A model generated the notes under the pieces. It saw nothing but the letters and a program-made list of their open reading frames with translations, was not told the origin of the DNA and did no database searches. From the IMG/VR virus record IMGVR_UViG_3300002143_000153, positions 1-64,000 of that record: a stretch of 64,000 nt of DNA. One strand, written 5' to 3'. The position numbers and the translations under genes are program-made. Positions 3,483-32,500 of the stretch are shown here, piece after piece (within the stretch, counting starts at the first letter, position 1; each line of letters opens with the position of its first letter). The DNA is from a virus.

Positions 3483-4151
3483 ATGACAACAATAGGAGAA
3501 GTTATATCAAGAATAAGAGGTCAGGTAAAAGCAGAAGTACAAGATGCTTTTGTAACAGATAGATATATCTATAGCCTGATCCAAAAGTTTTCTCAACTAC
3601 TAATGAGAAGACAGGACAGTGCTAATAAATTAATGAAATTTAATTCTGTATGGCAAACATTACCATTTTTTGAATTAGTAGAAGTAGATAAGGTAGAAGC
3701 ATATTGTACAGGAATAAAAAGTAATTGTACAATTATGAGAACTAGAGATAAGTTACCTCATATGATTGAAGGTTACTGGGGACCATTAATTAGAACAGTG
3801 AGCTCCATTGATGGTTCTACTGAGCTACAAATAACTCAACCGGGAACATACACTTCTATGACCAATACTACATCTTTTAGATATAACAAGACTAAATACT
3901 TTTGGTATTTAAATGGTTATTTATATTTTCCAAATATAGAATGGGATGCTGTTAAAATAGAAGGTGTATTTGATGGAGATATTTCTGAGTGGACTTGTGA
4001 TAAAGATGAATGTATTCCAAGATACCAACAAAAGATAAATATACCAGAGGCATTATTTGCTGAAATAGAACAACAAGTTTTAGCTGTGATGACTAACACA
4101 TTGAGAATTCCAGCTGAAGATTCCGATAACAAAATTAATTTACATAGATAA
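3483..4151 (+). CDS. Ring/tail-tube adaptor protein
   Basis: 222 aa. A helical N-terminus (MTTIGEVISRIRGQVKAEV, then VTDRYIYSLIQKFSQLLMRR) is followed by a beta-rich middle with several cysteines and a C-terminal helix (IPEALFAEIEQQVLAV). This layout fits the head-tail adaptor / ring proteins next to the tail-tube protein in crAss-like phages. The stop codon overlaps the next start in TAATG, which points to translational coupling and joint assembly. Likely part of the collar between portal and muzzle; the family assignment rests on order and fold impression. Confidence 0.6.
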   Translation: MTTIGEVISRIRGQVKAEVQDAFVTDRYIYSLIQKFSQLLMRRQDSANKLMKFNSVWQTLPFFELVEVDKVEAYCTGIKSNCTIMRTRDKLPHMIEGYWGPLIRTVSSIDGSTELQITQPGTYTSMTNTTSFRYNKTKYFWYLNGYLYFPNIEWDAVKIEGVFDGDISEWTCDKDECIPRYQQKINIPEALFAEIEQQVLAVMTNTLRIPAEDSDNKINLHR

Positions 4152-5035
4152 TGTCCGTATCACATAAATATAGAACTTTTGATCAACTGTTAAATGACGT
4201 AGCAATTGATTTTTCCAGTTTTTCATTGGAAGGTTTCGTAGAACCCGCTCAACTTATTAAAGTTGCAACAAGAGTAAACTATGATTTAGGTTTAAAAATA
4301 CATAGAACTAAGCAACTTGTTTTAGAAATTGAACATAATAAAGCTAGACTACCTCATGATTTTGCATATTTAAACTATGCTTTTATTTGTGGTGAGTATA
4401 AGATTGAAACAGGTAGTATGCCTTCAGGTACACATACAGAAACTGTAAGTGTAAATTATGTACCGGAGCCTGGTAATACAGGACCGTGTGAAGATCCAAC
4501 TTGCAATGATGTTTGTATTGTAAAACCTTGCAAAGAAAATGACGGATATAAACTTATTCAAAGAATAAATACTAGTCAGTATAAAGAATACACTGCATTT
4601 TCTCCATTAAGAATTGGAACTGTAAATGATGCAACTTGTGATTGTCCTAATATTAATACAACTTCTTCAAACATTGGTGAAATTAAAGATGGTTTTTTAA
4701 AAACAAATTTTAAGACAGGTAAAGTTTATATAAATTTCCAAGGGGCAATGGAAGATAACGAAGGTAACTTACTTGTATTAGATCATCCTTATTGTAATGA
4801 GTATTATGAGTATGCTATTAAACAAAGGATACTTGAGAATATGATGTTTGCTGGTGAGAATGTTGGAAACCAAATGGGTTTAATTGAACAAAGACTTAGA
4901 GCTGCAAGAAACAACGCTTTAAGTTTTATGAATACACCAGACTTTGCAGAAATGAAAAAAATGTGGGAAGTAAATAGGAAAGCTCAATACCACAATTATT
5001 ATAATATGTTTAAGAGTACACCTACATTAAGATAA
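4151..5035 (+). CDS. Tail tubular / ring protein (P22 gp4-like position)
   Basis: 294 aa. The N-terminus (FDQLLNDVAIDFSSFSLEG, then LIKVATRVNYDLGLKI) and the strand pair LVLEIEHNKARLPHDFAYLN match the character of the tail-tube/adaptor protein of crAss-like phages, where a short helical bundle is followed by a LP-hDF beta element. A Cys-rich insertion occupies ~110-165 and the C-terminus is helical, with a YYEYAIKQRILENMMFAG segment. It overlaps the preceding gene by 1 nt and ends 4 nt before the muzzle gene, keeping the conserved tube-then-stabilisation order. Role: a ring of the short tail tube. I am fairly sure of the type, less sure which ring. Confidence 0.7.
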   Translation: MSVSHKYRTFDQLLNDVAIDFSSFSLEGFVEPAQLIKVATRVNYDLGLKIHRTKQLVLEIEHNKARLPHDFAYLNYAFICGEYKIETGSMPSGTHTETVSVNYVPEPGNTGPCEDPTCNDVCIVKPCKENDGYKLIQRINTSQYKEYTAFSPLRIGTVNDATCDCPNINTTSSNIGEIKDGFLKTNFKTGKVYINFQGAMEDNEGNLLVLDHPYCNEYYEYAIKQRILENMMFAGENVGNQMGLIEQRLRAARNNALSFMNTPDFAEMKKMWEVNRKAQYHNYYNMFKSTPTLR

Positions 5036-5039
5036 TACC

Positions 5040-8000
5040 ATGGCAAAGAAGAATAGTTCATCGCAAAATAACGGATCATCTTTTCAAAATACTTCTAGTG
5101 TAGATACTAGAGTGTTTTTGAAAGGTATGGTTAAGGACATGAATGCTTCTTATCAAGCAAAAGAGTCTTGGTCTCACGCGCGTAATGCTGCAAATAATTC
5201 TGTAGATGGGGATTTAGGGCTTATTGGTAATGAGCCAGCAAATTTAGCATGTGCTAAAGTACCATATACTATTATAGGCGCTATACATACGTATTCTGAT
5301 CAATGGGTTTTATATTCAACGGATGATGTAAATTCTGAGATAGGTTTATTTGATGATAGTAAATGTGAGTACATAACTCTTGTTAATGATCCCTGTTTAA
5401 ATTTTAACAAGAAACATTTAATTGTTGGTGCTGCAAAAGAAAATTTTGACTGTACTTGGCAAACATATTGGGATGATGGTAACAATCCATCTAGAACTCT
5501 TAATATAAATGATATACCTTGGAAGCAAGTTTGTACAGATGAGAATAACGTAGTTCTTCCGGGCCCACCTAATTATAATTCTGTTGGATGTATAACCTGT
5601 GTTGACACAACAGACTTAGATTGTGAAAAGATAAGAATAGCTCCATTAGTTGATACACCATGTATTACATTAAATAAAGGAGAAAGTGGAGGTCAGTTAA
5701 GAAATGGATCATATCAAGTTTTTATAGCATACACTGTAAACGAACAAAAAGTAACAGATTATATTGGTGTATCTAATATTCAACCTTTATTTGATCATAA
5801 TGATTTATCAGGATCATTAAAAATTACAGTATCAAATTTAGATAAAGAATTTGAGTACTATGAACTTGTAATTTTTTCAAATAATCAAAACCAAAGTGTA
5901 GCTAAAAGAATTGGTTTATATAGTACTGAACAAACAGATATTGAAATTGACTATATTGATCAATCATTAATTACTGTACCATTACAGCTAATACCTTTAA
6001 GATCACCGGCTTATGAGAAATCAGATTCAATGTATGTTGTAAATGATTATTTAATAAGACAAGGCCCAACAGAACAATTTGATTTTAATTACCAATCATT
6101 AGCAAATAAGATTAGAGCTAAATGGTTAGTTGCTGAATATCCTGCTGCTTATTATTACAAGGGTGGTAATAAGACAAGTTTTATGAGAGATGAACAATAC
6201 TCATTTTTTATTAGATGGATTTATAATACAGGTGAAAGATCTAGTTCATATCACATTCCAGGCAGAGCACCTAAAATAAATGGTAGAAATCAGTTTGGTA
6301 AAATTGTAGATGAAACAGCTGTTAATATTGGAACAGACTCATTAGCAAATGATGAGATGAATTTCCAAATTTATAATACAGCAACTGAGACTGCAACTGG
6401 TTTAGTTAAACCAACAGGTGATGGGGGTATTATAATTGCAAAAGGAGATATGGCTTATTGGCAATCTTCTGAAAAATATCCAGCAACAAGACCTGATATA
6501 TGGGGTAATCTTTGCGGTAAATATATTAGGCATCATAAAATGCCTACAGAAGAAATTTCAGCTAATCTTCAAATATCAACTACTAATGGTACAACAATAA
6601 GATTGTTAGGTGTTGAATTTGAAAACATAGCACCACCTCTAGATAACAATGGTGATCTTATTACTAATATTGTTGGTTATGAAATATTAAGAGGTTCAAG
6701 AGAAGGCAATAAATCTATTCTTGCAAAAGGTATATTTAGAAATATGCGTACCTATAATATACCTGATGGGGGTCAAACTCTAGGTAATACTACAGGATTA
6801 TACCCGAACTACCCTTATAATGATTTAAGACCTGATGTATATTTCCATGATGGTAATGCTGATCCAGATACACATAGAACAGATGGTTGCAATACATTTT
6901 TTGAATCTGTAAGAGATTATAAACCTTTAACTGGTTATAAAAAAGATTATTTTACATTTCACTCTCCAGAGTTAATGTTTAGAAGACCTTTTTTAAGTGC
7001 TTATGAAACTAGAATTTACGGAGAACTTGATGGGCAAAGTGTAGGTCATTTTATTAAATCAGAAAATCATCCTCAGAATAAATTACTTAGAAACTCCGCT
7101 GCTGTATTAGGTGGTGCTATTGGTATAGGTTATGCAATTAATCAAGTTCAAGGTACAAGACAATTTAATTACAATGGTCCTAAATTAGCTGCTCCATTTC
7201 CATTAGGTGTTGATCCTGTTAGTTATGGGCTTGCTTTAATTACTTTAAATGCTGTAGGTGTTGCTACTACTGTTGTAGATACGGTTTTGGATGTTTTATT
7301 AAGCGAGGCTGCAGATATAGCATCTATAGTTGATGGTGGTACTTTTGCATTTGCTTCAACTCAAGGAAAAGCCATAAGTGACTTTGCACTTGGTGGAACA
7401 CCTGGTATGATAGGTGGTAGTAAAGATGAGATATATACATTTGACAATCCTACATCTAATTTACCTAAAATATTTAAACTTATTCTTGGTGTTGCAATTG
7501 GTGCTGTTAATATTGGTATTGGCGCACAAGAAATAATAGATCTTATATATAATCAAGCTGACGAAGACGATTTTGCATTTAAATATAACTCTCATGGTTT
7601 TTATGATCAGTTTACTACTAGAGGTATTAATAAAAGATTTAGAACAAAGAATAAAAGTTCTAATTTTATAAAAAATACTTTTCAAGAATTTGAAGGTTAT
7701 AAGGTAAACAATTTGTTTAGACCTATGACTGTAGCCATAGCAACAGAACAGACATTAGAAGATCCAACAATAGTTGATAAATCTAGATATACTATAGGGG
7801 GTGATGCTGATAATGATTTTGGAAATACTTATTTGAGAAATCCAGATCAAGAACAAACAAAAAATATATCTGTAATATACGGTGCTTTAAAATATAATTT
7901 TAAAAATCAATATGGTCAGTTAGATGGCATCAAACAAATTCAAATGAGAGGTTGTGTTGAGCTGATAGATGTCAAACGTAAACAAGATAAATTTGTATCT

Positions 8001-11000
8001 TCTCCAATTTTTTCAGGTGATGTCTACATTAATAGATATACAGAAAAAACAATAATGCCAATATTTGCTGATTTTTTAAATGGTCAACCTAATCAATATG
8101 TTTATGATTATTTATCAAGAGTAAATATTCCTTATCCAAGATTTTGGATGGATACAAGAACTTTTGATGCTACAGCTTTAGGCAGAGACATTACAACTTT
8201 AGGCTTTTTTAGTGGAGGTGATTCTTTACCAAATGATTTATTTTATTTAGATAGAGGTAATACAAGTTGTAATCACAAGGTCTTAGGTAATATATTACCT
8301 AATATAGGTGATAAAACTGATTTAAATAAAATATTTTCTATGACTACAGCCTACATGTATACACATGTTAACGGTGTTCAAGATTTCTTTGTTGAATCAG
8401 AATATAATTTAGCTCATAGAGATTGGAAAGATGAACCAAAAGGTAGACATTATGATGCTTATGAATATACTAATGTTGATGATCTATTTCACGCGGATAT
8501 AATTAAAGAAGGTAATTTATATAATTATGATTTATCTTTAAGTATTACTAAAACAATATCTCAAGTAACATCTTTTGGTAATGTACAACCTAGAGACTAT
8601 GATCCTTTAGTTGCTGAAAATTGCTATCAGTATTATCCTAAAAGATTAATATACTCTTTACAGGCTCAAAAGGAAGCAAAGAAAGATTTTTGGAAAGTAT
8701 TCCTTGCTGATAATTATAAAGATTTTAAGAATAAAGTTAATGTAATTAAACCTATTAATAAAAGCGGAGCCATTATATTTTTTCCTTATCAATCTCCGCA
8801 AATGTTTCAAGGGGTTGATCAATTAGAAACAGATCTAGGAACTAAAATAACTCTTGGTGATGGTGGTTTATTTAGTCAAGCATTTCAAAATGTTGCAAAT
8901 TCAGATCTTTCAAATGAGTATGGTTCATCTGAGAGTGCGCGTTCTGTAGTTAATACTCCTGCTGGTATATTTTATTTATCACAAGCTCAAGGTAAAGTAT
9001 TTAATATGTCAAATCAGTTAGATAATATTGCTAATGCTGGGATGAAATGGTGGTTTAATAAATACTTACCATCTACATTAATTAGACAATATCCTGATTT
9101 AGAATTTAGTAAACTATCAGATAATCCAGTAATAGGTATTGGTTGTCAAACTATATATGATTCAAATGATGACATAGTTTATTTTATGAAGAAAGATTTT
9201 TCTGTTAAAGAAGAATTTAAAACTAATATTAATTTTGAAGATGATCAATTTGTTCTAAGACGTACTGTAAACTCTAGACCTATACCTTTAGTAATTGGAG
9301 ATTCTAATTACTTTGATAGTACTTCTTGGACTGTATCATATGATCCTAAAGCTAAAGCTTGGATATCATTCCATGATTGGTTTCCAGAATTGTCTTTACC
9401 AAGCATAAATCATTTCTTAACCACCAATACGGTTACAACAGATATACCTTATTGTCCTCCTGGTTATACATTTAATCCTGAGACTAAACAATGTGAAAAT
9501 ATAAAGAGAGAGATTATACCAGCTAAGACTACTGTACATGAAATATTATCTTCTATAAATGGCGATTGTCTTCTTGATATTGTAATAGCAATGGATGATT
9601 CAGCTAGTGTAAATTCAAATAATATATTTCAAGCACAGAAAGATTTTGTTCAAAGCTTTTTAACAAGTTCTGTTATAGCAAATGGTATGAGCGCTGGTGA
9701 TATACAAGTTGGCTTTACAAGATTTAATAGTCAAACTACAAGTAGCATGAATCCTAATGGATATAGCATGAGTAACACAGTTACACCTGCTCAGGTTGAT
9801 TTATATTATACTCCAGCTGGCGGTTTCTTTACCGAAATTTGTGATGGTATGACTCAAGCTGATATTAAAATAAAAGATGTAAATAATTCTCAATTACTAT
9901 CTAGAACAGGAGATCCAAATTTTAAATCTATATTAATAGTTATAACAAATGGTGACACTACTGAGTGTCAAGGTATACCTAGTGGAAGTAATCCTAGTTT
10001 TCCTACATTTGGTTGTAATCAAATACTAGGTCAACCTAATTATGAAATCTACGGTGTATTCTGTAGTCCAACAACACCAACATTAAATGCGGGTGCTTTG
10101 GATATTATGAATGCTATAACTTGTGGTACGCCAGAACGTCAATTAATAATTGTTTCAAATGGTGGTTATGCTGAAAATGATCCAGGCTTTGTTGCAAGAG
10201 AATTTTCAGAAACTATTTGCCCAGGTGATTGTAATTGTCCTGAAGGATACACATTAGTATACAAAAATCAGAATGGCTATTATACTGATAGTTACGGTCT
10301 TTGTGATCCTAATAATCCTCCTATCTGTAGAAAAGTAGAGTGTGAATGTGTTGGTAACTGTACACCCATAGAAACAAGTGGTGGGTGTGCTGGCTATACT
10401 GTTTATGATATAGGTGATCCAGCATATATAAATCCTCAACCTTTATTATGTAATTGTTTTACTGGAAAAACTACAGCTCCAAGTTATGAACTAAGTGGTT
10501 TATGGAGACATAACTACAGATGTGATTTATATAGTAACTACTATGATGTTGATTACCCATGGGAAGTTGAGATAATTGAAAACACAGGACAAGAAGTTAC
10601 AACTTTAAGAAGTGTTGAATATCAATTAGAATCTTATGTTTACAAAGGAGATTTACACCATGGATGTGCAGATGATAGATGGCATGATTTAGATTTCAAT
10701 TTTGATGAATCTATAATTCATAACTCAGAACAAGTTTCCGGCCTACTAAGATTGGAACTTAATCCTAAAGAAGATCCTTATGGTATGTTACAGTATCCAA
10801 TAATTGGAGCTGCTGATATGAGAATCCTTTATTCTAAAGAAGAACAAAAATATAGATTTAATCAATTTTGGGATGCTACAGAAGATAGAGGTGAATTTAG
10901 TGCAGCTGAAAGAAGTATATTTATTACACAACTAAATGGGTATATCAGAGATTTAAACGCTGCTAATTTAAACTATAACAAGGATCCATTCCAACATAAA

Positions 11001-11108
11001 AAGTTTAGACACTATTATAATAAAGTTCTTTTGAGAAGACATAAATCTGGAAATAGAAAAATGCTTCTTAAATTAGTAAACACAAAACTTAATTTATCAT
11101 TTAGATAA
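5040..11108 (+). CDS. Tail stabilisation / muzzle protein with embedded vWA domain
   Basis: 2,022 aa. The N-terminal ~350 residues (SSVDTRVFLKGMVKDMNA, SWSHARNAANNSVDGDLGL, then beta strands) are the tail-stabilisation region typical of crAss-like phages, which forms the muzzle closing the short tail. Residues ~680-840 contain long hydrophobic, Gly/Ala-rich stretches. Residues ~1510-1690 form a von Willebrand A-like domain with a MIDAS DxSxS at 1519-1523 and a later TNGDT. It is bracketed by Cys-rich CPPGY/CPEGY segments, and a long Cys-rich region follows (~1715-1800). The C-terminus is basic. It follows the tube gene by 4 nt and its last base is shared with the next ATG. The muzzle assignment is strong by position and N-terminus; the vWA domain may mediate metal-dependent contact with a host receptor or fibre (inference). 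Confidence 0.85.
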   Translation: MAKKNSSSQNNGSSFQNTSSVDTRVFLKGMVKDMNASYQAKESWSHARNAANNSVDGDLGLIGNEPANLACAKVPYTIIGAIHTYSDQWVLYSTDDVNSEIGLFDDSKCEYITLVNDPCLNFNKKHLIVGAAKENFDCTWQTYWDDGNNPSRTLNINDIPWKQVCTDENNVVLPGPPNYNSVGCITCVDTTDLDCEKIRIAPLVDTPCITLNKGESGGQLRNGSYQVFIAYTVNEQKVTDYIGVSNIQPLFDHNDLSGSLKITVSNLDKEFEYYELVIFSNNQNQSVAKRIGLYSTEQTDIEIDYIDQSLITVPLQLIPLRSPAYEKSDSMYVVNDYLIRQGPTEQFDFNYQSLANKIRAKWLVAEYPAAYYYKGGNKTSFMRDEQYSFFIRWIYNTGERSSSYHIPGRAPKINGRNQFGKIVDETAVNIGTDSLANDEMNFQIYNTATETATGLVKPTGDGGIIIAKGDMAYWQSSEKYPATRPDIWGNLCGKYIRHHKMPTEEISANLQISTTNGTTIRLLGVEFENIAPPLDNNGDLITNIVGYEILRGSREGNKSILAKGIFRNMRTYNIPDGGQTLGNTTGLYPNYPYNDLRPDVYFHDGNADPDTHRTDGCNTFFESVRDYKPLTGYKKDYFTFHSPELMFRRPFLSAYETRIYGELDGQSVGHFIKSENHPQNKLLRNSAAVLGGAIGIGYAINQVQGTRQFNYNGPKLAAPFPLGVDPVSYGLALITLNAVGVATTVVDTVLDVLLSEAADIASIVDGGTFAFASTQGKAISDFALGGTPGMIGGSKDEIYTFDNPTSNLPKIFKLILGVAIGAVNIGIGAQEIIDLIYNQADEDDFAFKYNSHGFYDQFTTRGINKRFRTKNKSSNFIKNTFQEFEGYKVNNLFRPMTVAIATEQTLEDPTIVDKSRYTIGGDADNDFGNTYLRNPDQEQTKNISVIYGALKYNFKNQYGQLDGIKQIQMRGCVELIDVKRKQDKFVSSPIFSGDVYINRYTEKTIMPIFADFLNGQPNQYVYDYLSRVNIPYPRFWMDTRTFDATALGRDITTLGFFSGGDSLPNDLFYLDRGNTSCNHKVLGNILPNIGDKTDLNKIFSMTTAYMYTHVNGVQDFFVESEYNLAHRDWKDEPKGRHYDAYEYTNVDDLFHADIIKEGNLYNYDLSLSITKTISQVTSFGNVQPRDYDPLVAENCYQYYPKRLIYSLQAQKEAKKDFWKVFLADNYKDFKNKVNVIKPINKSGAIIFFPYQSPQMFQGVDQLETDLGTKITLGDGGLFSQAFQNVANSDLSNEYGSSESARSVVNTPAGIFYLSQAQGKVFNMSNQLDNIANAGMKWWFNKYLPSTLIRQYPDLEFSKLSDNPVIGIGCQTIYDSNDDIVYFMKKDFSVKEEFKTNINFEDDQFVLRRTVNSRPIPLVIGDSNYFDSTSWTVSYDPKAKAWISFHDWFPELSLPSINHFLTTNTVTTDIPYCPPGYTFNPETKQCENIKREIIPAKTTVHEILSSINGDCLLDIVIAMDDSASVNSNNIFQAQKDFVQSFLTSSVIANGMSAGDIQVGFTRFNSQTTSSMNPNGYSMSNTVTPAQVDLYYTPAGGFFTEICDGMTQADIKIKDVNNSQLLSRTGDPNFKSILIVITNGDTTECQGIPSGSNPSFPTFGCNQILGQPNYEIYGVFCSPTTPTLNAGALDIMNAITCGTPERQLIIVSNGGYAENDPGFVAREFSETICPGDCNCPEGYTLVYKNQNGYYTDSYGLCDPNNPPICRKVECECVGNCTPIETSGGCAGYTVYDIGDPAYINPQPLLCNCFTGKTTAPSYELSGLWRHNYRCDLYSNYYDVDYPWEVEIIENTGQEVTTLRSVEYQLESYVYKGDLHHGCADDRWHDLDFNFDESIIHNSEQVSGLLRLELNPKEDPYGMLQYPIIGAADMRILYSKEEQKYRFNQFWDATEDRGEFSAAERSIFITQLNGYIRDLNAANLNYNKDPFQHKKFRHYYNKVLLRRHKSGNRKMLLKLVNTKLNLSFR

Positions 11109-14100
11109 TGTATAAAAAATTTCAACAGCAAGAATCAAGAGGTTTACCTGGGGGACCTAATGAAATGTTTAGTTATGTAACAGGTGTATTCTCTATGGAT
11201 GGCTATAAGAGTGACTCACCGGATGTAAACAATCCTTATAATATTATACCTTCTGGTAATATAACAATGAAGGGTGTAGACTTTCCTGTTCATGGTACAG
11301 ACAACTATGGAAATCAAAAGATGATGTATCCAGGAAATGATTATAAGTTTCCTGGGGACATGGTGTTTGAAACACCTATGGCTCAAAATGGTATTGAAGT
11401 ACCTAAAAGACAAGGTGCTAGAAAAAATCCAGATGGTACTGAGTCTACTCATCTTATGGCTACTGAAACTTTAGATGGTAAAAATTGGGTTTCATTTCCA
11501 ACATTATTTCAAGATCCTGATGGTACTTGGATTGATATGTCTGATAAGCCATGGGAAGAAGCTTATGAAGAAGCTAAGAAGAGAGGTGAACTTATAGATT
11601 TTGGTACAGACAAAGAAGCTGCAATTAAGTTTGGGGAAGGTTCTTGGAAACCTAAGATGAAACGTGGTGGTGCACTGTTGAATAAAACTATGAAATGTAA
11701 CAACTGCGGTTGGTCATGGAAAGCTGCTGATGGTGGAGCTGATGTTAATACTTGTCACAAATGTGGAGGTGAAGCTTTAATCAAAGCTCAACCAGGTGTA
11801 GAATTAACAAGAAACGGTAGACTTCAATACGATAAACCTGATCCAAACGCTACATACAAGTCACCTTCTTATGAAGAATATTCTAATTTAGTAAATAAAG
11901 AAAAAACCAAAAAGGTTGAAACAATTGCTGATAGACAAAAATTAGAAAAACAAATATCAAATTATAATATTAGAGGAGAAATAACAACAGATGGTTCAGG
12001 TCAAAAATTTCAAAAACAACAAAAATTAGCAAAAGATAAACAAGGTAATTTAGTTATAAATGAGTATTTAATTAAAGTTGATGATAAACCTCTTGCTTTT
12101 AATGATTCTGGAAATAGTCCTATAAATAGAGCATTAGCTTATCCCTATGTATACGCTAGTGAAAGAACAGGAACTACTGACTTTTTTAAAGGTGATCCTG
12201 CTTATGATGCAGCTAGTAAACAAGGATTAGGCGCTTCTATGATGGATGGTTTATCTTTAATGTCTCCCTATGCTTGGGATTATTCTTTAGGTAAGGTAGG
12301 AACTAATAATCAAAGTGCTTATTCAAGTGGTGATGAATTTATTACAGACATTGCTTTATCTGGTCCTGCATCATTAGCCGGTAACTTAGTTAAAAAAGGA
12401 ATTAAACCTGTAGCTAAAGAAATACCTTCGCTTATGAATAAAGGTAGAGGTATGTTAGATAATGCAGCAGAATATGTTGTTAATCAAAGACCTGCTTCTG
12501 GTAATAATTTTGATTTAGAAAAACTTAGAAACATATATCATAATTCTCAAAGATATTTAGAACCTCAAGAATCAAGATTTTTACATAAAAAAGGTTATGG
12601 TAAACAATCCCAATATAGAAATAGGTATGATGGTACCACTGTTACAGATGAACAAGTAGATGAATTCTGGAGAATTAGAGATGCTAATCAAAATCAATTA
12701 TCACAAATACAATTAGATTTAAGAAGACATGCTCAATATGATGCAGATTTATTAGCTGATGATTATCAAAATCTTATTGCTGGAAGACCTGCTGTTAACT
12801 ATCCTAATTTAGATATAACATCTAATGAATTGCAACAACATATGTTAACTCAGCGTGAACAATACCTAAATACTCAAAGAACATGGCAAACTTTACAAAA
12901 TACACCTCAAACCCCTCTTAAACCAAAAACTCCTATTAATAAATCGGGTTTAACTAAAGATGAAGTATTACAAAAAGCATCACCTAAAGATAAAGATGGT
13001 ATTTCTAAAATGTCTGAAGCTGAATTTGAAAACACTGTTCTTAAACCTAATGGAGAAATAACCCCTTATTATTCGGGTTCTTTGGAAAAACAATTTAGCG
13101 GTTCTCAAAATGTAACGGCTTTATCTCCAAAACAATATACAGATGAATTTAATTCAAGATTAGATTTATTAAATGATATTATTGCTCAAAAAAATAAATC
13201 AGGTGTAGAATATAGAGTTAAGGGTTTAGATGAAAACGGTAGATTAACTTTTTATACACCTGAGCAATCTATACCTGCAAAATTAACAAATGACCAAAAA
13301 GCAACTATTAAAGCATTTAATAAAGATCCTAAAGATTATCTTATAAATCAAGCTGGTTTAGAACAAAAAGGAAATAAATTTAGATTACCTTGGGGATCAG
13401 GAAGCTGGGGTACTGAATTTAATAGTATAGAAGAAGCTATTGAACTTGCAAGAAATGAAATGAAACCTTTTACTAAACCAAAAGTAATATCTGGAGAATC
13501 AACTTGGAGAACTACATTAAATCCTGGCCAATGGAGAGGTGACGTTGAGGATATAGCAAATACAGAATACTTTAGAAGTATTCCTGGTTTAGAAATGTAT
13601 GATACTACGCCTGGAGTATTTGCAGATAATGTAGCAAGAAAAGGTACAGGTGCTTATGAATCTATAAATGAATATCTTAAAGCATTAAATTTAGGTAGAG
13701 TAAAACCAGGATTTAATTCTCAAACTGAATTTTCAAGAGGAGCTTGGGAAAACTTTATTAAATCAGGAAGAGGTGTAGGATTTTATGCTAATCCAAGAAC
13801 TGTATATGGTACTATGAAAACGGCAATACCGTTAACAGGTGTTGGACTTGGAGCATATTCATTATCAGATCCTAATTTTAAATCACCGTTAAATCAAAAA
13901 CAATATGGTGGTGAAGAAACAAATCCATCATTTGATTCTTGGTATTCAAGATATGCTAAAGCTACAGATAATTCTACTAACCCATATGATAAAGAACATT
14001 ACTATGATTATGAATCATTCTTTAATGATAACATAAGTAAACCTGAAAATTTATATCCATTAGATACAAGGGATTGGCATCTGTCTTCTAAATATAAAAA

Positions 14101-15973
14101 AGAGGGTCACCCAAGATTATATGAATATCCTGATGGCACATATGGTGAAAACTATATAGAAGGTGCTAAAGACACAAGAGAGTTTCAAAAAGGTGGTAAT
14201 GTAAGATACACAAGTAATCCTAATGATAGAGGTATAAAAGCTTATGCTGATAGTTTAGATTTGTATAATGAGTATATGGATTTTTACAACCAAGCATTAA
14301 ATACAAATGCAGGAACAAGAGAGCAAGTAGCAAGAAGGTATGGGATTCAAGCTGTTCCTAATAGAAATAATTTATTTAATTTGACTGGATATGATCCAAA
14401 TCTAGTTTTTTCAGATAATAGTTTAACTCATGGTCCTATAGCGGCTTATCCAAATAATAATAGCGTAAACCCAAATATTTTACCCATCGCTGCTAGAAGT
14501 TATTCAGATGTAGATAACGCATTAATTTCTCCTTTTTTAGCAGAGTATAAAAAACCAGTACAACGAGTAAAATACCGTGATCCTGAAATAGTGGCAAAAC
14601 AAAAAGAACTAATTGCCGCAGGTTATGATATAGGTGCAGCAGATGGTATTTGGGGTCCTAAATCTCAAGCTGCTTGGGAACAGACACAAAAAGAAATTGT
14701 TAACTTAAAACCTAATGTTGTTGAACCTACAACTAAAAAAGAATATTCTAGATTTGTAAATATACATGGGAAAAATTATGGCTTTAATAATCAAGAAGAA
14801 TTTTTTAATATAGCAAAAAGTAAAAATATGCCTAAAGGTTGGGCAGAAGCTAATGTTCCAAAAAATTTAGAGTTTCAAAAAGGTGGTGAATATAAAGTTA
14901 AAACAGGAGATACTTTTTATGGTATTGCTAGTAAAAATAAAATAACAAAACAAGCGTTACTAAAAGCTAATCCCGGATTAGATATACAAAATCTTAAATT
15001 AAATCAATTAATTAAACTTCCTACACCACCACCTGCACCAAAACCTGTAGCAGAACCTGTAAAACCAAAACCTCAAGAAACAGCATGGAGTGATTATATC
15101 AATCCTATGAACTGGGGTGTAACTGATAGAGATGATGATGGTACTTTTAGACAAGCATTTAGAGCAGCAAGAGTTGATGGTGACGATGAGTTTATGTGGT
15201 ATGGTAAAAGATATACTACAGATCTTGTAGAAAAAGAAATTAAAAAAGAAACTACAAATGTACCTTTAAAACCAAGTAGTTTTTTACCAACATATTTTAA
15301 TGATATTAAACAAATTGAAAATGCTGAAAAGAAAGGTTGGGATTCTGAAAAACAAAAATGGTTTCCTTATGAATCTTTTGAAGATCCTAAAAGTTTTGAT
15401 ATAGGTTATGGTCATAAAATAAAAACAGGTGAAGATTATTCAAAAGGACTTACAGAAAAAGAAATTTTAGCATTAATAAAAAAAGATTTTAATGAACATG
15501 AAAAATTAGCTGCACATTATATTAATAAAACACATGGTGCTAATACTTGGGCTAATTTAAATTCTTATCAAAAAACATTATTAACAGATACACAATATAA
15601 TGTAGGAAGTCTTGGAGAATTTCCAAGTTTTTCAAAAGGTGTAGTTAATAATGATAAAGAAACTATGTTGAAAGAATACAAAAGATACACTGATGGTAAA
15701 CCATTAGGTAGAAACAAATGGATTCTAGAAACAATAAATGATTATATAGAAAGTGATCAATTCCAACCTATTAAAAAACAAGCTGGTGGTGAAACAGAAA
15801 TGCTTTCTATGTATTCAGATTACATGATGGGTAAATATGATGGCACAGACACGGAAGAAGTTGGTAAAAAGATATATGATAAAATGAATAGACTTTATTA
15901 TAAACAAGCAAAACAAGCAGGAGTAACTGTTCCTAATTATATAATGACTAATATTATTAGGCAAACAGCATAA
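11108..15973 (+). CDS. Multidomain virion protein: zinc ribbon, PG-binding, LysM and lysozyme
   Basis: 1,621 aa. In order: residues ~96-182, a compact domain with THLMATET and FPTLFQDPDGTW; a four-Cys zinc ribbon (C197, C200, C216, C219, with GWSWKAADGG between); a long low-complexity middle; a peptidoglycan-binding repeat at ~1157-1197 (AAGYDIGAADGIWGPKS); LysM at ~1262-1305 (YKVKTGDTFYGIA); and a GH24/T4-type lysozyme at ~1390-1560 (KQIENAEKKGW, FDIGYGH, TDTQYNVG). Five GG motifs (ends at residues 188, 935, 1030, 1260, 1561) fall near domain borders. It overlaps the muzzle gene by 1 nt. Likely a virion-carried wall-degrading protein released during entry; it could also contribute to lysis. 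The lysozyme, LysM and zinc-ribbon calls are well supported, the rest is inference. Confidence 0.85.
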   Translation: MYKKFQQQESRGLPGGPNEMFSYVTGVFSMDGYKSDSPDVNNPYNIIPSGNITMKGVDFPVHGTDNYGNQKMMYPGNDYKFPGDMVFETPMAQNGIEVPKRQGARKNPDGTESTHLMATETLDGKNWVSFPTLFQDPDGTWIDMSDKPWEEAYEEAKKRGELIDFGTDKEAAIKFGEGSWKPKMKRGGALLNKTMKCNNCGWSWKAADGGADVNTCHKCGGEALIKAQPGVELTRNGRLQYDKPDPNATYKSPSYEEYSNLVNKEKTKKVETIADRQKLEKQISNYNIRGEITTDGSGQKFQKQQKLAKDKQGNLVINEYLIKVDDKPLAFNDSGNSPINRALAYPYVYASERTGTTDFFKGDPAYDAASKQGLGASMMDGLSLMSPYAWDYSLGKVGTNNQSAYSSGDEFITDIALSGPASLAGNLVKKGIKPVAKEIPSLMNKGRGMLDNAAEYVVNQRPASGNNFDLEKLRNIYHNSQRYLEPQESRFLHKKGYGKQSQYRNRYDGTTVTDEQVDEFWRIRDANQNQLSQIQLDLRRHAQYDADLLADDYQNLIAGRPAVNYPNLDITSNELQQHMLTQREQYLNTQRTWQTLQNTPQTPLKPKTPINKSGLTKDEVLQKASPKDKDGISKMSEAEFENTVLKPNGEITPYYSGSLEKQFSGSQNVTALSPKQYTDEFNSRLDLLNDIIAQKNKSGVEYRVKGLDENGRLTFYTPEQSIPAKLTNDQKATIKAFNKDPKDYLINQAGLEQKGNKFRLPWGSGSWGTEFNSIEEAIELARNEMKPFTKPKVISGESTWRTTLNPGQWRGDVEDIANTEYFRSIPGLEMYDTTPGVFADNVARKGTGAYESINEYLKALNLGRVKPGFNSQTEFSRGAWENFIKSGRGVGFYANPRTVYGTMKTAIPLTGVGLGAYSLSDPNFKSPLNQKQYGGEETNPSFDSWYSRYAKATDNSTNPYDKEHYYDYESFFNDNISKPENLYPLDTRDWHLSSKYKKEGHPRLYEYPDGTYGENYIEGAKDTREFQKGGNVRYTSNPNDRGIKAYADSLDLYNEYMDFYNQALNTNAGTREQVARRYGIQAVPNRNNLFNLTGYDPNLVFSDNSLTHGPIAAYPNNNSVNPNILPIAARSYSDVDNALISPFLAEYKKPVQRVKYRDPEIVAKQKELIAAGYDIGAADGIWGPKSQAAWEQTQKEIVNLKPNVVEPTTKKEYSRFVNIHGKNYGFNNQEEFFNIAKSKNMPKGWAEANVPKNLEFQKGGEYKVKTGDTFYGIASKNKITKQALLKANPGLDIQNLKLNQLIKLPTPPPAPKPVAEPVKPKPQETAWSDYINPMNWGVTDRDDDGTFRQAFRAARVDGDDEFMWYGKRYTTDLVEKEIKKETTNVPLKPSSFLPTYFNDIKQIENAEKKGWDSEKQKWFPYESFEDPKSFDIGYGHKIKTGEDYSKGLTEKEILALIKKDFNEHEKLAAHYINKTHGANTWANLNSYQKTLLTDTQYNVGSLGEFPSFSKGVVNNDKETMLKEYKRYTDGKPLGRNKWILETINDYIESDQFQPIKKQAGGETEMLSMYSDYMMGKYDGTDTEEVGKKIYDKMNRLYYKQAKQAGVTVPNYIMTNIIRQTA

Positions 15974-23501: not shown

Positions 23502-26500
23502 ATGGATTTAAAAAATCAAAATACTGTAACACCAGAAGGTGTTGAAAATTCTTTACCAATTAATACATCTATAAGTCAAGCATGGAATCCTGATGGTTTT
23601 GAATTTAAACCAATGAATGAAATATTTGATTTTGGTCCCAATACTGATGACCAAGTTGCTGAAGAATTTAGAAGAACTATAAATGAAATAGTTCCTAAAG
23701 TAAATGAAATAATTCCTTCATCAAATCTTGAATACAAAAAAGGTGCTCCAGGTTTAAATTCTTTTGAGGGTTTTAGTAAAGTTTTTGATAATCCTAATAG
23801 TTATATGGCTGGTGTAAAGGATGATCCTTTATATTTAAAACCTATGATATCTGGTGCTAGAAGTTCTGGTTTTGATAGAATAGCCGATCACCATAATTTT
23901 AAAGAATTAGGATGGAATCCTTTAAGAGATAATGAAAAATATTATAATGATAATTCTTCTGCTTTTTGGGATTTAACAAGAGCTACTAAATATTGGGCTG
24001 AATCTTTAGGTACAGGTTTTATGTCAAGTTATAGATCTTTTGGTGATTTTATAGATGATGATTCTTATTGGTTATCAGCAGATTATGAATCTTCCGATGA
24101 GTTTGAAGAAGCTACAAGATTAGGTAGTAGTACAAGAGGTGGTTTTGCAGGCTTTTCTACTAATTTATTTTTACAAACAGGTTATACTGTTGGTATACTT
24201 AGTTCTATTGCAGCAGAAGAACTTGCATTAGCTGCAGCAACTACTGCATCAGAAGGTATTGCTGCACCTGCCTTTTTATCAAGAACAATGGTTAATTTTG
24301 GTAGAAGTATTAAAAATATGGCCAATCTATTTGATGTTGGTAAAGCTTTAAAAGGAAGTAAATCTATTTTAGATTCCATAAGAAGTGTAGAAAATGCAAA
24401 AGATTTATGGGATGCAAGTAGAACTATTGGTGCAGCTCCTGTAAAATTTTTAGGAAATGTTTTTACACCTGAAACAATGGCTGTTATAAAATCCATGAAA
24501 TCAGCTGAAAATACAGCTCAAGGAATGACAGCTGCTGCAAAATTTGGAAAAGGTTTTGGTGCTTTTTATAAAGATATGAGAAGTATAAACTATGCAATGA
24601 GTGAAGGTAAAATGGAAGCAGGTTTTGTTTTCAATGAAGTTTTCTCAGAAGGTTTAGCAATTAAAAAAAGAGAAAACGGTGGATTTGATTTATCTCAAGA
24701 ACAATTAAAAACTTTAAATGAAGATGCTTTAAAAGCAGCAACAGAAACACTTTGGTTTAATGCACCTGCAATTTTTTTAACTAATCAATTAGTTTTAGGT
24801 ACAGCATTAAGAGGTTTTTCTCCAACAATGAGAAGAATCTTTAGTGATAAACTCCCAGGCTTTGCTAAAAATATAATCAGAAGTAAACCTGTTAGAGATA
24901 AAGCAACTGGTGTATTAAATAAAGGTTTATACGTAGACGTTAGTCCTAAAAATTTTAGAGCTAACTTTATTAATCTAAAAAAACTTAAAAGTGTTGGCGC
25001 TAAAGGAACTTTAATAAATACAGCTCATGGTCTATTAAGATATTCTGCGGCAAGTATAGGTGAAGGTTTACAAGAGGTGTATCAAGAAGGAGTTCAAGTA
25101 GGTGTAGTAGATTACCACAGAGCTTTGATGGAAAATCCAATGGCACCTGCAACAAACTTAATGCAGCAATCATTTAAAGAAGCTGTAAATAGTCAAATGT
25201 CTGGTCAAGGATTAGAAGTTTTTGCTTCTGGTTTTTTAATGGGTGGGTTAGTACAAGGACCACAAAAATTATTTTTTGAAATAGCCCCTGAAATATATCA
25301 GAATAAAAAGAATCCAGAAAAATTTGCTGAATATGAAAAAAATAAAATAGAATTTCTTAAAGTAGCAAATGAAGTTGGAGATAAAATTCAAGAAAACCCT
25401 TTTGATTTTTGGAATAACTCTAAATTACATTTGTTTTCTGCAAAAGAAGGTGATGATGAAACTAAAAAAGCTTTATATGAAGATGATAACTTAGGTTTTA
25501 GAGATGCAAAAGATGATGCTACTTTTATGCATTATCATTTTCTTATGACATCTGAAGCTGATGGTTTATTTAGAGAGCAATTTCAAGATCTTCTAAATCT
25601 AAATGATGAAGATTTAAAAGCTTTATATCCTGATTCAAATAAACCAATAGAGGATGTAAGAAATAAAATACAAAAATCAATAGATGGTATTAAAGAGTAC
25701 AAAAAGAAATATAATGATTCTTTTGATATTATTCAAAATCCTATAAACTATAACCAATATGAAAAACGTAAAAGAAAGTATAATGATGAAAGAATAAAGC
25801 ATGCTGCTATAGAACATGCTAGAATGCTTTATTTATTTGCAAATGATGCTTTTGAACAAGCTAACAAAAGAAGATATAATATTGAAAATACATTAATAAC
25901 GTCTCCTGTTATGAATGATCTTGCTTCTAATGATTTAACTGTTTTACTAAGTGTTGACTCTATAAATTTAGAGAATAATATGTTAATCAGGGAAATTTCA
26001 AATTTACAAAAAGCTGAAAAACCTGATTCAAAACTAATAAAAGAAAAACAAGCTAAACTAAAAAGCTTAATTGAGTATAGAGTAATTCTAGAAAGCATCT
26101 ATGATGAAGAATCTAAAACATATGATAGAGATAAAAGCAGTAAACTAAAAGATCCTTTAGTTAAGTATCTTAAAACTCTTGGTGCAATTAATAAAAAAGG
26201 TTATATAAAAAGAGATGAAATCAATGGTGTTATTGCAATGCTTGTTGATCATAATAATCTAGATACAAGAGCTCAGTTATTTGATAGAACTGTAGCCTTG
26301 TTTAGTGATCCTAATAAAATATTAAATCTGGTTGATAGAATATCAGATAACTTGGGTGTTCTATTTAGTAATACTAAAAAGATATATGTAAAGAGTGTGG
26401 AACAAGCCGTTATGAATGAAGAGATGAAACAATTAACATCTCAACTAGAATCAATAGGTGTTGTTCCAGATCCTGATCAATTTGATGCTTTTTTAAAATC

Positions 26501-29500
26501 AGGAAATGCAAATCTACTTACAAAATTCCATACAGAAAAAGGAATATTAGATCGTACTATAGATAAAGAAATTTATGATGTAATTCAATCAGAAATTAAT
26601 GTATATAATACAGCATCAAATTATAAGCCTGAAATAACAGAAGCAGAAGAGGTAGATGAGTTTGGTAACATTGCAGATGAGTCTCCTGCAAATAAAAGTA
26701 TTGATGAAAGTAAATTTGATAATATAATAAGTGAAGAACTGGGTGATGATGTCTTATCTGAAATACAGGAAGAAACACCTGATAATGATTTAACTATACC
26801 TGGGGATGCTTTTTTTACACTACAGGTTTTAAATAATATTTACAATGATTATAAAATTAAGAATATTAATAAAGAATCTGCGTTATTAACATTTCAGGAA
26901 TGGGTTAATACTAATGCGGGTAATAATGTTGTAAGAGGTTTAGACAAACTAAAAGCTTTATGGTTTAATTCATTAAAAGCATCAGATAAAACAGAAGAAG
27001 AAAACACAACTTTATATAAATCTGAAGAAGGTTTTCAAGATTGGATTCTTGAAAATAAAAATGATAGAGTTGTAAGTCTAATAATGATAATGGCAGGTTT
27101 TAATATAAAATCTATTGAATCAGAAAAAACTGAAACAGACTTAGAAAGTATTGTAGATACAGCAACAGAAGAAGTTATACAGATAGGACCCAATGTAAAC
27201 ATTGTAAAAAGAAAAGTAATTAATCCTGAAGACACAACAGATTTTAATTATATATATGAATTAGTAGATAATAATAATATTTCAATTGAAGCACAATTTT
27301 TAAAAGAAGCTGGTGTTGATGGTATTTATTTAGAAGAAAATAAAGCAGGTGCTTGGGCCGCTTATACAGCACTGTTAAAAGTTGTTCCAAAAACAGATGT
27401 TTATTCATACGATGGTATAGATGTAAAATACGGAGATGAATTAGAAAATGTTAACGGTGATAAATTTATTGTACTAGGTGCAGATACATCACCAAGTATG
27501 GGTCAATATTTAAAGTTGATACCTTTTGATAAAGTTGGATTATCCAATGAACAAAAAAAGGCAGCTATGATTTATGTTAAAGAAAAAGGATTTAGTGATT
27601 TATATTCTAAACCAGAAAATAAAATAACTAGTATTACTTATTCTACAAATATGACTAAATTAGATCACCGTGATATTAACGGTGTATATGCTATACAGTT
27701 AACTAGTAGAACAACAACTTCAGGTAAAGAAACTATAAAGGATGCTGAAGAAAGATTACAAAAAACTTTATCTCTTTTATCAGCTGAAGATTTAGAATCA
27801 GCTACTGTAACAATTAGAGAAAATGTAAGACAAGCGCCTAAAGCTTTTCAAACCGGAACTACACCTGAAAACAACCTTATTCAAAATAAGGGTGATAAAT
27901 ATACTGTGCTAATTACTTTGTCACCAGGGTCTATAGACAAAGTTAAATCTTTGTATGGTGAAAACTTTAATGGTGATATTGCTTTTATTAGAAATGACCG
28001 TTACGGTTTTGTTGGAAGATCAGGTAATCAAGTAAGTGTAGACGCTTTTACAGATGGTAATTTAAAAAAATATATCTTAGGTAATAATACTGATGCGTCA
28101 GATCTTAAGAATCAAATGCTTAGACAAAGTGAATTAACTGAAAAGTTAGATGAATTAGTCAAAGACAATGTTTCTATGAGTCTTAAGGACTTTCAAGATA
28201 CAACCAAAATTAACTTAAAAATAAGCGATGGTATAGTTACTTGGGATGATGTTACTAAAAGCTTAAATGACTTAGCTTATAGTACATATGATGGTGTTAA
28301 AGTTGTAATGATAAACACTAAAGACGGTGTATCATATGTTACAGATATAAAGAACCCTACAGAAGAAGTAGCTTTTATAAATAAGTTAGAAGAAGATTTA
28401 GAAAAAACACCAAAGCCAGAAAAGTATGGTAATATGCTAAACATGGCGCTTGATTCTGGTAGATATGTAGCTATTGTTAAAGATGCTAATGGTGTAGTAA
28501 CAGCGGTACAGTTAAGACAAAAATCTTATAGCAAAGAAGAACGTACTGAATTTTATAAAGAACTTTTAGATAGAGCAAAAGAGACAGCTGATAATAATGT
28601 TAAAGAGGGAAATGTTTCAAATAAAACAATTAATAATGATTGGAATGATAACTTTAATAAAAGGTTTTATTTAAAAGCAACAGCAGGTACTTTTATTGAT
28701 TTTAAAGTTTGGCCTGATGGTAATATAACTTTGAGTATACATAATAAAGCTAAAGGATTAGAAAAGCAACTTGAAAGAATTAGAGTTGCTGATTTAAATG
28801 AATATATAAAAGATCCTATAAAGGTGGAATCATTATATGAAGTTTTAAATAATAATGATGTTGTTGTTAAATTTAATAAATATCAATCTGAAAAAATAAA
28901 TTTATCAGGAGAATCAGTAACACGAGTTTTTGCTACTACAGCAGGTGTTAGTGAGATCATTGAAAAGACAGTTACTGATATAAATCCAAACGTTAGAATA
29001 AATAAAAAACTGTATCTAGAATACACTTCAGATTTAATAGAAGCAGAAAAAATTATACCTGGTGTAGAATTAGAAGATCAAAAAGGTGAAGTATTAACAC
29101 CACAAGAAACGGCTATAGCCACAGATAAAGTATCTGATATAAATCAAATACAAGCTGCTAGAGAAAGTCAAGAAGAATTAAATAGTGATGAAATAACAGC
29201 TGAAGCTGATATAGAAAGAGAATTATTCACAACCCCTATTAGCTTAAACAACTGGACTTCTGTAGAGCATGGTAAGTATATAAAATTACTTACACTAAGA
29301 GGAGATTTAGAAAAAAGAGATTTATTGAGAAATCTTGACCCTAAAAGTAGTTGGCAACTTTATGCAGTTGAAAATCTTTCAGAAGAAGAAGCTGGTGATA
29401 TTTTATCTATCATAAAAGAAGCTAAAAAAGCTGATATAGAAATAAGAAAAAATAAATCAAGAACTATTGATTCACAACCTTTTCAAAGAAACAATACTAC

Positions 29501-32500
29501 AGGAGCTAATTCAAATTTTGAAAGAAATTCTACAGATGTAAAAAGAATAGGATTAAGCATTGATAAAAAAATCAATGATGGTAAAACATCTAATGAGATT
29601 ATACAAGAATTAGCAGCTCAAGGAATTGTGGCTATGACTAACACACTTGATAGATTTAGGGAGTTTATATCAGATAGACAATCTGGTAAAACTACACAGA
29701 CTTTTGAAGAGTGGTATAATGAAACAGTTTCTGAACTTGATGCAGAACTTGATGCAGAACTTGATGCTTTAAATACTAATACAGAACAAACTTCTGAAAC
29801 ATTAAGTTTAGAAGATCAAATTAAAAAGCTTGAGGGTAGAAAAAGTATTTTAGATAAGCAGATTAATGATGAAGCAAAAGCACAAGGTGTTAATAGATAT
29901 AATTTAAAACAAGGCTCTGAGGAATATCAACAACTTGATTCTGAAATTAAAAATTTAAAATCTCAACGTAAAAATGCTTTCAAAATAGTTAATACACCAG
30001 AAGCATTAGCTGAAGATTTAAAAATTGATGACTTTATTAATTGGGCTAAAAGAAACTTACCTGATTTTATTCAAATAGTTGATATAGCTGAATTAAAAAA
30101 TAAACTAAAAGCTAATGGTTATACTGCAGGTCAGTTTACAATGGCTTTAAGAAATATTGCTGGTGGTGTAGAAGTAAGCGGTACTATATACACAGGTCCT
30201 TCAAGTATGATTGCTTACCATGAAGCTTTTCATAGTGTCTTTAGAATGCTGCTTACAGATGAAGAACAAACTAAATTATTAAAAATTGCTAAAGATGAAG
30301 TAAGAGCTAAGTTTAAAACACCAGAAGCTTTAATGGAAGACATGTTGCAATTTCAAACTCTTAGCCCTTTATATAAAAGCATGAGTCTTAAAAGACTTGA
30401 GCGTGAATATCTAGAGGAATATATGGCTGATGAGTTTGCTAAGTTTAAACAAAATCCTAGAAGTACAAAAACATCTTCTATAATTAAATCCCTATTTAAT
30501 AGAATAATAGAATGGATTAAAGCAGCATTAAAACGTTATAGTAAAAATGAACTTATCAATGTGTTTGAAAACATTGATGCTGGTAAATACAAAGGTGGTG
30601 CTGTAGCAGATAACTTTTATACTAAAGATTTAGATGGTGATATTACTATTGAAGCCTATAAAGCAATTCCATATGAATCAATTAATGGTGAGCTATTTGC
30701 TTCTGAATTATTTTTAGATCCTGCAACATCTGATTTATTAATAAGAATGATTGCTAATACATATCTAGAAAGAGTTAGTAAAGCAAAGACTAATATTGAA
30801 GAAAACAAAGTTAAAGATCAACTTTCAAATTTATTAAGCAAGTATAGCAAATTAAATGATGAAGATCAAACTGAAGAGATTACATCTGAAAAAGTTTATA
30901 TAGGCGCTGTTATAGCAGATTATGCTGATTTGTATTATCCGGGTAGAGATATCTATAATGGAGATAAATTTAGTGATTCTCAAGCTGAAAAATTAGAACA
31001 AATTTATAAAGCTTTAACTTTAGATGATGGAGAAAAAGTTGCTGATGAAGTAGCAGATTATATTTCTTTATTTGATATGAAGTTTGAAGAAATAAATAAT
31101 GAAATAGATTATCTTGAAAATTCAATTGGTAGTAGAAGTGTAGACCAATATGGTAGAGAAAATCAAGAGATAGGTATTCAACCCAGTAAAAAAATTAGAC
31201 TATATATTGCATCAACAATAGTAACTTCAAAAGACATGTTTGGTAATACTGAATTGCTTAATGGTGAACCCATAAAAGTAGCTGTTAAATACCAAGATGT
31301 ACACAATGGTTTAATGCTTGCTGCAATGAATGAGATAGATCCTTTTAAAATGATTACAAGAATGTATTACCATTCAAGAAGATCTTTAAATACAGCAGCT
31401 GTACTTGATAGATTTTTAAATGATGTTGGTATCATAAATGGGTCAAGATCTATGAGTGATGTTATTGATTCAGGTGAATTACCTACGGATATTAAAGATA
31501 CTTTATTATATCATGAGTTTATAAAAACTTATAAAAATAGTAGATTTGATTATGCATTTCATTTAAAAGATAAAAAATTAGGTAAAGCAATTATTATTTC
31601 AGCATCTCAATCAGATGCTGCTACTGCGCAAATAGATTCTTGGAAAAAATTCCATGGAGATAAGTTTGAATTATTTAAACAAAATGATAAAGCCTTGAAC
31701 CAAGCTGTTTCATCTTTAACTTTACTATCTAAAACATTAGGTAAAAATAAGATTACTAATAAGGAGTTATCTGCATTAGCTGATTCTTTATCAAAGAATA
31801 TTTTTGAAGACCTTGGTATAAGTTTTAGCCGTGGTTTCTTAGAGGTAAGCATTTCTTCTTCTATTGTTAACAAGAAAAAATATCAAAAAAACTTAACGGA
31901 AGTTGGTGAAAACATAAGACTTATTACTAAAGAAGATGCTTTGCAAATGTTACTTGCCTTACGTGTAAAAGTAACATCAGACGTAGGTTCAAAAATTGTT
32001 AAATTTAGACCTGAAAATTTATTTGTAGATGTTGAAGGTAAAGGAGTAAGTTCTAGATTAATGTCTTTAGCTTTAGGTAACGCTCATTTTGATGAAGCGA
32101 TTGGAGCTACTGTATTTACAGATGTTAATGATAAACTTATATACGCACACCAACATCAAACATATCATTCAAGAAGAATAGCTCAGTTAAATAGTGAAAC
32201 TTTTTTAACTGAATTAGTTGAAGAAAATGCATTTCTAGAAAAAAATATTCTTACTGATAACTTGGCTTTTAGACAAATGGCCAAAGATAAAATGCTTGCA
32301 ATTACTAGAGTTTCTGGTACTAAAAATGCAGATCTTTCAAATAGTCAAATTGATAATTTATCAGATGCAGCATTAAAAGAAGAAGGTGTTACTTATGGTG
32401 ATATGAGTTCTGCTGAATTTATAAATACACTTGTTGATTTATATGTACAATCTTTTAATACTAAAAGTGAAACTAATGAAAAAATAACTTATAAGAATGA

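Follow-up and report, generated by a model that had tools for sequence, protein, structure and literature searches.

An optional vWA head in a propeller turn of the muzzle protein in a family of environmental crAss-like phages

A 2,022-residue open reading frame that appears to close the tail of a crAss-like phage raises the question of why such a protein should carry a von Willebrand A (vWA) domain, a fold it shares with integrin I domains. The frame lies in a stretch of 64 kb out of a 93,957-base virus record, referred to here as the window. The first-pass annotation had placed a vWA domain with a metal ion-dependent adhesion site (MIDAS) between two Cys-rich segments of a muzzle protein and proposed that it acts as a receptor-sensing trigger or as a hook for tail fibres. 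The identification of the carrier as a crassvirus muzzle protein is well supported. The product matches PHROG families of virion structural proteins (E 1.6e-40 and 3e-25) and is homologous to the muzzle annotated in csAssE-Sib (E 5e-17), and the family of gp44 from PhicrAss001 aligns with its C-terminal part with an hhalign probability of 99.3 (E 1.2e-19) in an alignment bridged by close relatives and three named phages. Foldseek searches with the modelled C-terminal half return several crAss 'stabilization' proteins and one 'crassvirus muzzle protein C-terminal domain' protein. The gene order R2-R1-muzzle is the same as in PhicrAss001, whose gp44 likewise follows R1 and has a homologous C-terminal propeller. 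Searches of the PDB gave no direct sequence match between the solved muzzle and the window protein at E<1, and, as regards IG1, IG2 and the crass domain of gp44-like muzzles, the N-terminal 350 residues align weakly (probability 60). By homology to gp44, the window protein would form the hexamer that closes the tail. The coordinates of the features are collected in Table 1.

Table 1. Features of the muzzle locus in window coordinates
Feature	Coordinates	Strand	Basis or remark
Tail ring genes R2 (3483-4151) and R1 (4151-5035)	3483..5035	+	Pfam CrAss_Ring_2, E 1.5e-17; CrAss_Ring_1, E 1.5e-9
Muzzle (tail stabilisation / nozzle) protein	5040..11108	+	ORF of 2022 aa
Conserved propeller strands before the slot (WISFHDWFPELSLPSINHF, residues 1441-1459)	9360..9416	+	Several invariant columns, alignment A1
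Variable cassette, residues 1460-1821	9417..10502	+	In one propeller hairpin turn; 8-823 aa among 70 relatives
5' Cys-rich stalk segment (CPPGY..., residues 1472-1509)	9453..9566	+	C1472 and C1485 100% conserved
vWA head, residues 1510-1727	9567..10220	+	Pfam, AlphaFold, Foldseek; Pfam core 9576-9965 (residues 1513-1642)
MIDAS motif 1, DDSAS (D1519, S1521, S1523)	9594..9608	+	100% conserved in 38 non-redundant heads
MIDAS threonine T1598	9831..9833	+	97% conserved in 38 non-redundant heads
MIDAS position 5, N1637 (AAT)	9948..9950	+	D in 97% of non-redundant heads; N only in the window
3' Cys-rich stalk segment (CNCPEGY...C, residues 1731-1806)	10230..10457	+	Eight cysteines, 96-100% conserved
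Conserved strand after the slot (GLWRHN, residues 1820-1825)	10497..10514	+	W1822, H1824 and N1825 invariant

Two other loci of the window were noted. The gene immediately downstream of the muzzle gene (11108-15973, 1621 aa) encodes a LysM domain (E 2.5e-10) and has a weak endolysin match; its relatives range from about 540 to 1330 aa, and the product is thus possibly a further modular protein with an ejected or lytic role. A protein with a YkuD L,D-transpeptidase domain is encoded at 38467-40296, adjoining an ORF of 4987 aa (23502-38465).

Several lines of evidence establish that the inserted domain is a vWA domain, as had been proposed. The whole muzzle protein scores 28.7 bits against Pfam VWA (PF00092), above the curated cut-off of 23.8, and the segment alone scores 31.7 bits. 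A profile built from the vWA heads of relatives, with the window left out, gives the window 167 bits (E 3e-50); among 1000 shuffled sequences the top score is 9 bits, and a chance match is therefore rejected. An AlphaFold model of a 386-residue segment, computed with an alignment of 51 family members, has a mean pLDDT of 85.8, and most blocks of the vWA core reach 93-98, about 95. The modelled head has the Rossmann-like alternating β/α fold, the absence of which would have spoken against the annotation, and Foldseek matches it to integrin I domains, CMG2, TEM8 and proximal thread matrix protein 1 (PTMP1) with E values of 1e-8 to 1e-5. The TM scores against I domains, normalised to the target, are about 0.6-0.75. 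The head thus shares with vWA and integrin I domains the fold, the DxSxS motif and the MIDAS threonine; unlike integrin I domains, it has an asparagine for the MIDAS aspartate and sits in a tail-nozzle propeller on a Cys-rich stalk. The best sequence-profile match among solved structures is the mussel PTMP1 (PDB 4cn8, E 1.8e-4), also a vWA protein with a MIDAS, which can hold zinc according to the title of PDB 4cn9. PTMP1 is an animal byssus protein, and the likeness is confined to the vWA core.

The position of the head on the muzzle was derived from the alignment to gp44. The WISFHDWFPELSLPSINHF strands align with FTSFMSYEG...EFYAF of gp44, and the slot flanks, WISFHDW...NHF and W.HN, both invariant in the family, align with EFYAF-KDGK-MWEQ, so that the slot corresponds to residues 1234-1237 of gp44. 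There gp44 has only the short turn KDGK, whereas the window protein has 362 residues. The crass domain of gp44 lies within IG2 (318-1021), as described by Bayfield et al. 2023 (PMC10172136). Since IG2, including the crass domain, ends at 1021, the slot falls in the propeller part that follows, and the possibility that the vWA domain belongs to the tip crass domain is ruled out. The published length variation of muzzles concerns the crass and IG2 domains, elsewhere than this turn (PMC10172136). From the strand pattern, the blade with the slot appears to be the last one, probably blade 7, which in a seven-bladed propeller would lie roughly opposite blade 4. It is blade 4 that carries the gate loop in the PhicrAss001 muzzle (PMC10172136).

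The Cys-rich motifs on either side of the head, CPPGY at 1472 and CPEGY at 1733, are at the positions first reported, as are DDSAS (1519-1523) and TNGDT (1636). Rather than two separate brackets, they are parts of one conserved Cys-rich stalk, which together with the head makes up the cassette and is kept in relatives without the vWA head. Twelve of its cysteines are conserved at 86-100%, those of the 3' segment being C1731, 1733, 1755, 1763, 1768, 1770, 1783 and 1804, and the 5' segment has a weak cEGF match below the cut-off. This conservation is consistent with an exposed, oxidised environment. When the C-terminal half was modelled with AlphaFold, the result was poor outside the cassette (pLDDT 69, pTM 0.34) and too weak for placing the head relative to the propeller. 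Burial of the head in the tail lumen is nevertheless unlikely, because six of the longest cassettes (823 aa, in L047) would, judged from their residue counts, weigh about 0.54 MDa and so exceed the capacity of the tail cargo zone of PhicrAss001, given as about 0.4 MDa (PMC10172136), and because the cassette can be wholly missing. We infer that the head is exposed on the outside.

The MIDAS is among the best preserved parts of the head. The full set D-S-S-T-D is present in 43 of 45 vWA heads (alignment A3), and its five positions rank 3rd to 8th among 218 columns in conservation across 38 non-redundant heads, the median pairwise identity of which is 36%. The window itself retains DxSxS and the threonine and lacks the aspartate after β-4 (TDG): the TNGDT motif does fall at the MIDAS aspartate position, as had been noted, but the residue itself is an asparagine. 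This aspartate is not needed for membership of the vWA fold family, yet it bears on metal binding. The window head also has a two-residue insertion ahead of the MIDAS threonine, and with both changes it may bind metal less well or no longer; it is possible that N1637 is a base error in the assembly. The lengths of the three MIDAS loops range over 10-40, 10-22 and 15-41 residues, while the strands hardly vary. Because one loop on the opposite face varies too (6-26 residues), this pattern is only suggestive.

Some divergent heads have a MIDAS that reads as degenerate (L025, L023 and the second head of L059). Divergent vWA-like segments of the IDIVFVLQADDST type, with an apparently degenerate metal site, occur in L023 (14519-16216), L047 (14567-17107) and L059 (14513-17020), following a standard vWA head in L059 and a PA14-like module in L047. 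The head might accordingly be regarded as a relic or decoy, a fast-drifting exposed ornament that serves, for example, in shielding or weak non-specific sticking and has no specific metal-dependent binding, with N1637 as a mark of decay; the degenerate sites, the changes in the window and the optional presence of the head among relatives all agree with this. Drift would not preserve the metal site in nearly all heads at so low a sequence identity, and this explanation is therefore unlikely for the family, although the copy in the window may be heading that way.

The slot is occupied differently among relatives. In 70 distinct muzzles it is empty in two (L044, L055), holds the stalk without a head in seven (L017, L024, L058, L069, L072, L073, L077), a vWA-like head called by the family profile in 54, a PA14-like module alone in five (L015, L021, L064, L068, L075) and an unassigned module in two. 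The 54 include a tandem of heads in L059 and a pair of PA14-like and vWA modules in L047. The PA14 name is tentative, because the Pfam PA14 scores of L068 (12.2 bits), L064 (13.2) and the related L047 (17.2) are below the cut-off of 24; L015, L021 and L075 have no Pfam PA14 match. The unassigned modules (L020 14579-16330, L034 14564-16315), each of about 400 aa, gave no Pfam match above the cut-off and no PDB profile match. A search of other crAss-like muzzles for the insertion, which had been suggested at the outset, thus finds it widespread within the family, while the vWA head is absent from all 18 muzzles tested outside it; at the slot position, the muzzles of gut crassviruses, Cellulophaga phages, Leptolyngbya phage JY46 and loci related to L044 show nothing beyond a short turn. 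The cassette was not found in named phages, and a search of viral contigs with the cassette bearing the window's own head gave no match. The single match in bacterial genomes (L083, GTDB contig WLWP01000004.1, 114.7 kb, from a Pseudomonadales MAG) is itself a muzzle gene bearing the same vWA head, probably on a misbinned phage contig, and a cellular source of the cassette is rejected.

This distribution weighs against the idea that the head is a receptor-sensing trigger that opens the muzzle. According to that idea, an integrin-like conformational change in the head would be relayed by way of the stalk to the propeller, where the gate on blade 4 would open. The head does sit on the same propeller as the gate loop (PMC10172136), and the solved folds closest to it include integrin I domains. 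Of the 70 relatives, 16 have no head, L073 and L055, a member of the same clade as the window, among them; L055, L044 and every muzzle examined outside the family are without the head or without the whole cassette. Since headless relatives exist, muzzle opening cannot depend on the head in general. The part of the PhicrAss001 muzzle proposed to contact the cell is, moreover, the crass domain, by its surface loops (Bayfield et al., PMC10172136). A role as ejection trigger is very unlikely.

Comparison of close relatives shows how readily the head comes and goes. On the scaffold tree, the presence or absence of vWA changes at least 8 times. L073 keeps the stalk and misses the head, though its scaffold is 92% identical to that of the head-bearing L065; in both L073 and L017 the absence is clean and in frame relative to close head-bearing relatives, and the junctions differ. 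The closest non-vWA relative of the window, L055, has 68% scaffold identity and no cassette. Heads and scaffolds also have different affinities. The window scaffold is nearest to that of L001 (74%), yet their heads are only 36% identical, while the window head is nearer to those of L050, L030 and L003 (42-46%), whose scaffolds are 57-58% identical to that of the window. In AU tests, for which the groups were named after the trees were seen, a constraint joining the heads of the window and L001 is rejected (p 0.003), as are those holding head groups together on the scaffold (p 3e-5 and 3e-48). Because the vWA state changes so often and the head and scaffold trees conflict, the heads must have been exchanged between muzzle backgrounds, in the favoured reading by recombination. 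They also diverge faster than their surroundings: at 60-70% scaffold identity, the vWA domains are 41% identical and the flanking propeller 71-72%. A diversity-generating retroelement was considered as a source of head variation, and no reverse transcriptase was found in the 93,957-base record, which is possibly incomplete.

The same comparisons bear on the suggestion that the head is a docking hook for tail fibres of the phage itself or for some other protein of the virion. Assembly of protein with protein is also a common role of vWA domains, and six copies would stand at a symmetric position, so that an internal phage partner is possible. Between L065 and L073, the head is lost without the loss of any neighbouring gene, the gene sets being identical in the compared stretch. 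In the genes upstream of the muzzle, L065 and L073 show about the same degree of conservation as L065 and the head-bearing L019; those downstream are less conserved (61-82% between L065 and L073). The fibres of PhicrAss001 dock at R1/R2, away from the muzzle (PMC10172136), and fast divergence with exchange between backgrounds is unlike an internal interface. The hook for tail fibres finds no support here, and a docking role of this kind is improbable.

The reading that we consider likely is that the muzzle displays the head as an adhesion module, optional and exchangeable, which works through a metal ion. In each of its six subunits, the muzzle would extend one C-terminal propeller hairpin into a disulfide-rich stalk that bears the head. 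In the vWA fold both chain ends lie opposite the MIDAS, so that the latter is expected to face outwards from the phage. A divalent ion bound there would be the contact, coordinating an acidic group on a ligand of the host surface, and the bound head would keep the tail tip in place at the cell while ejection proceeds. The head is optional: some lineages have dropped it in a clean manner, and others have it twice or bear PA14-like or other modules in its place. Ligand binding by a vWA domain in the muzzle, part of the original proposal, draws support from the fold, the conserved MIDAS, the rapid divergence and the exchange of heads; for the window's own copy, N1637 counts against it.

vWA heads in phage adhesion parts are already known, and the present case is not new in kind. 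The gp164 protein of Bacillus thuringiensis phage 0305phi8-36 has a mid-protein vWA domain in the baseplate/fibre region that is replaced by another domain in relatives (PMC2147016), and eCIS tail-fibre proteins with VWA domains are phage-tail-derived target-binding fibres (PMC12923769). The former differs in that both the phage and the carrier protein are unrelated and the carrier belongs to a baseplate/fibre region, with no tail-closing muzzle; the carriers in eCIS are fibre proteins of contractile systems, whereas that of the window is a podovirus nozzle. A search of the open-access literature, a scope that leaves out most subscription journals, gave no report of a vWA cassette in a crassvirus muzzle or tail, or at this propeller turn.

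Crassviruses are abundant. The results suggest that a family of environmental crAss-like phages uses a removable integrin-like head on its tail-closing protein as an exchangeable host-gripping part. More broadly, and with about equal chances of being right or wrong, the muzzle may be a modular adhesion platform on which one propeller hairpin is a docking site for integrin-like, PA14-like and other heads. The nozzle, and not only the fibres, would then set which surface is gripped, with a conserved metal site amid variable loops doing the recognising. If true, this would be a case from nature in which integrin-like heads are shuffled on the nozzle of a virus, and a second muzzle site with exchangeable metal-dependent heads would offer a tangible way of studying adsorption by experiment.
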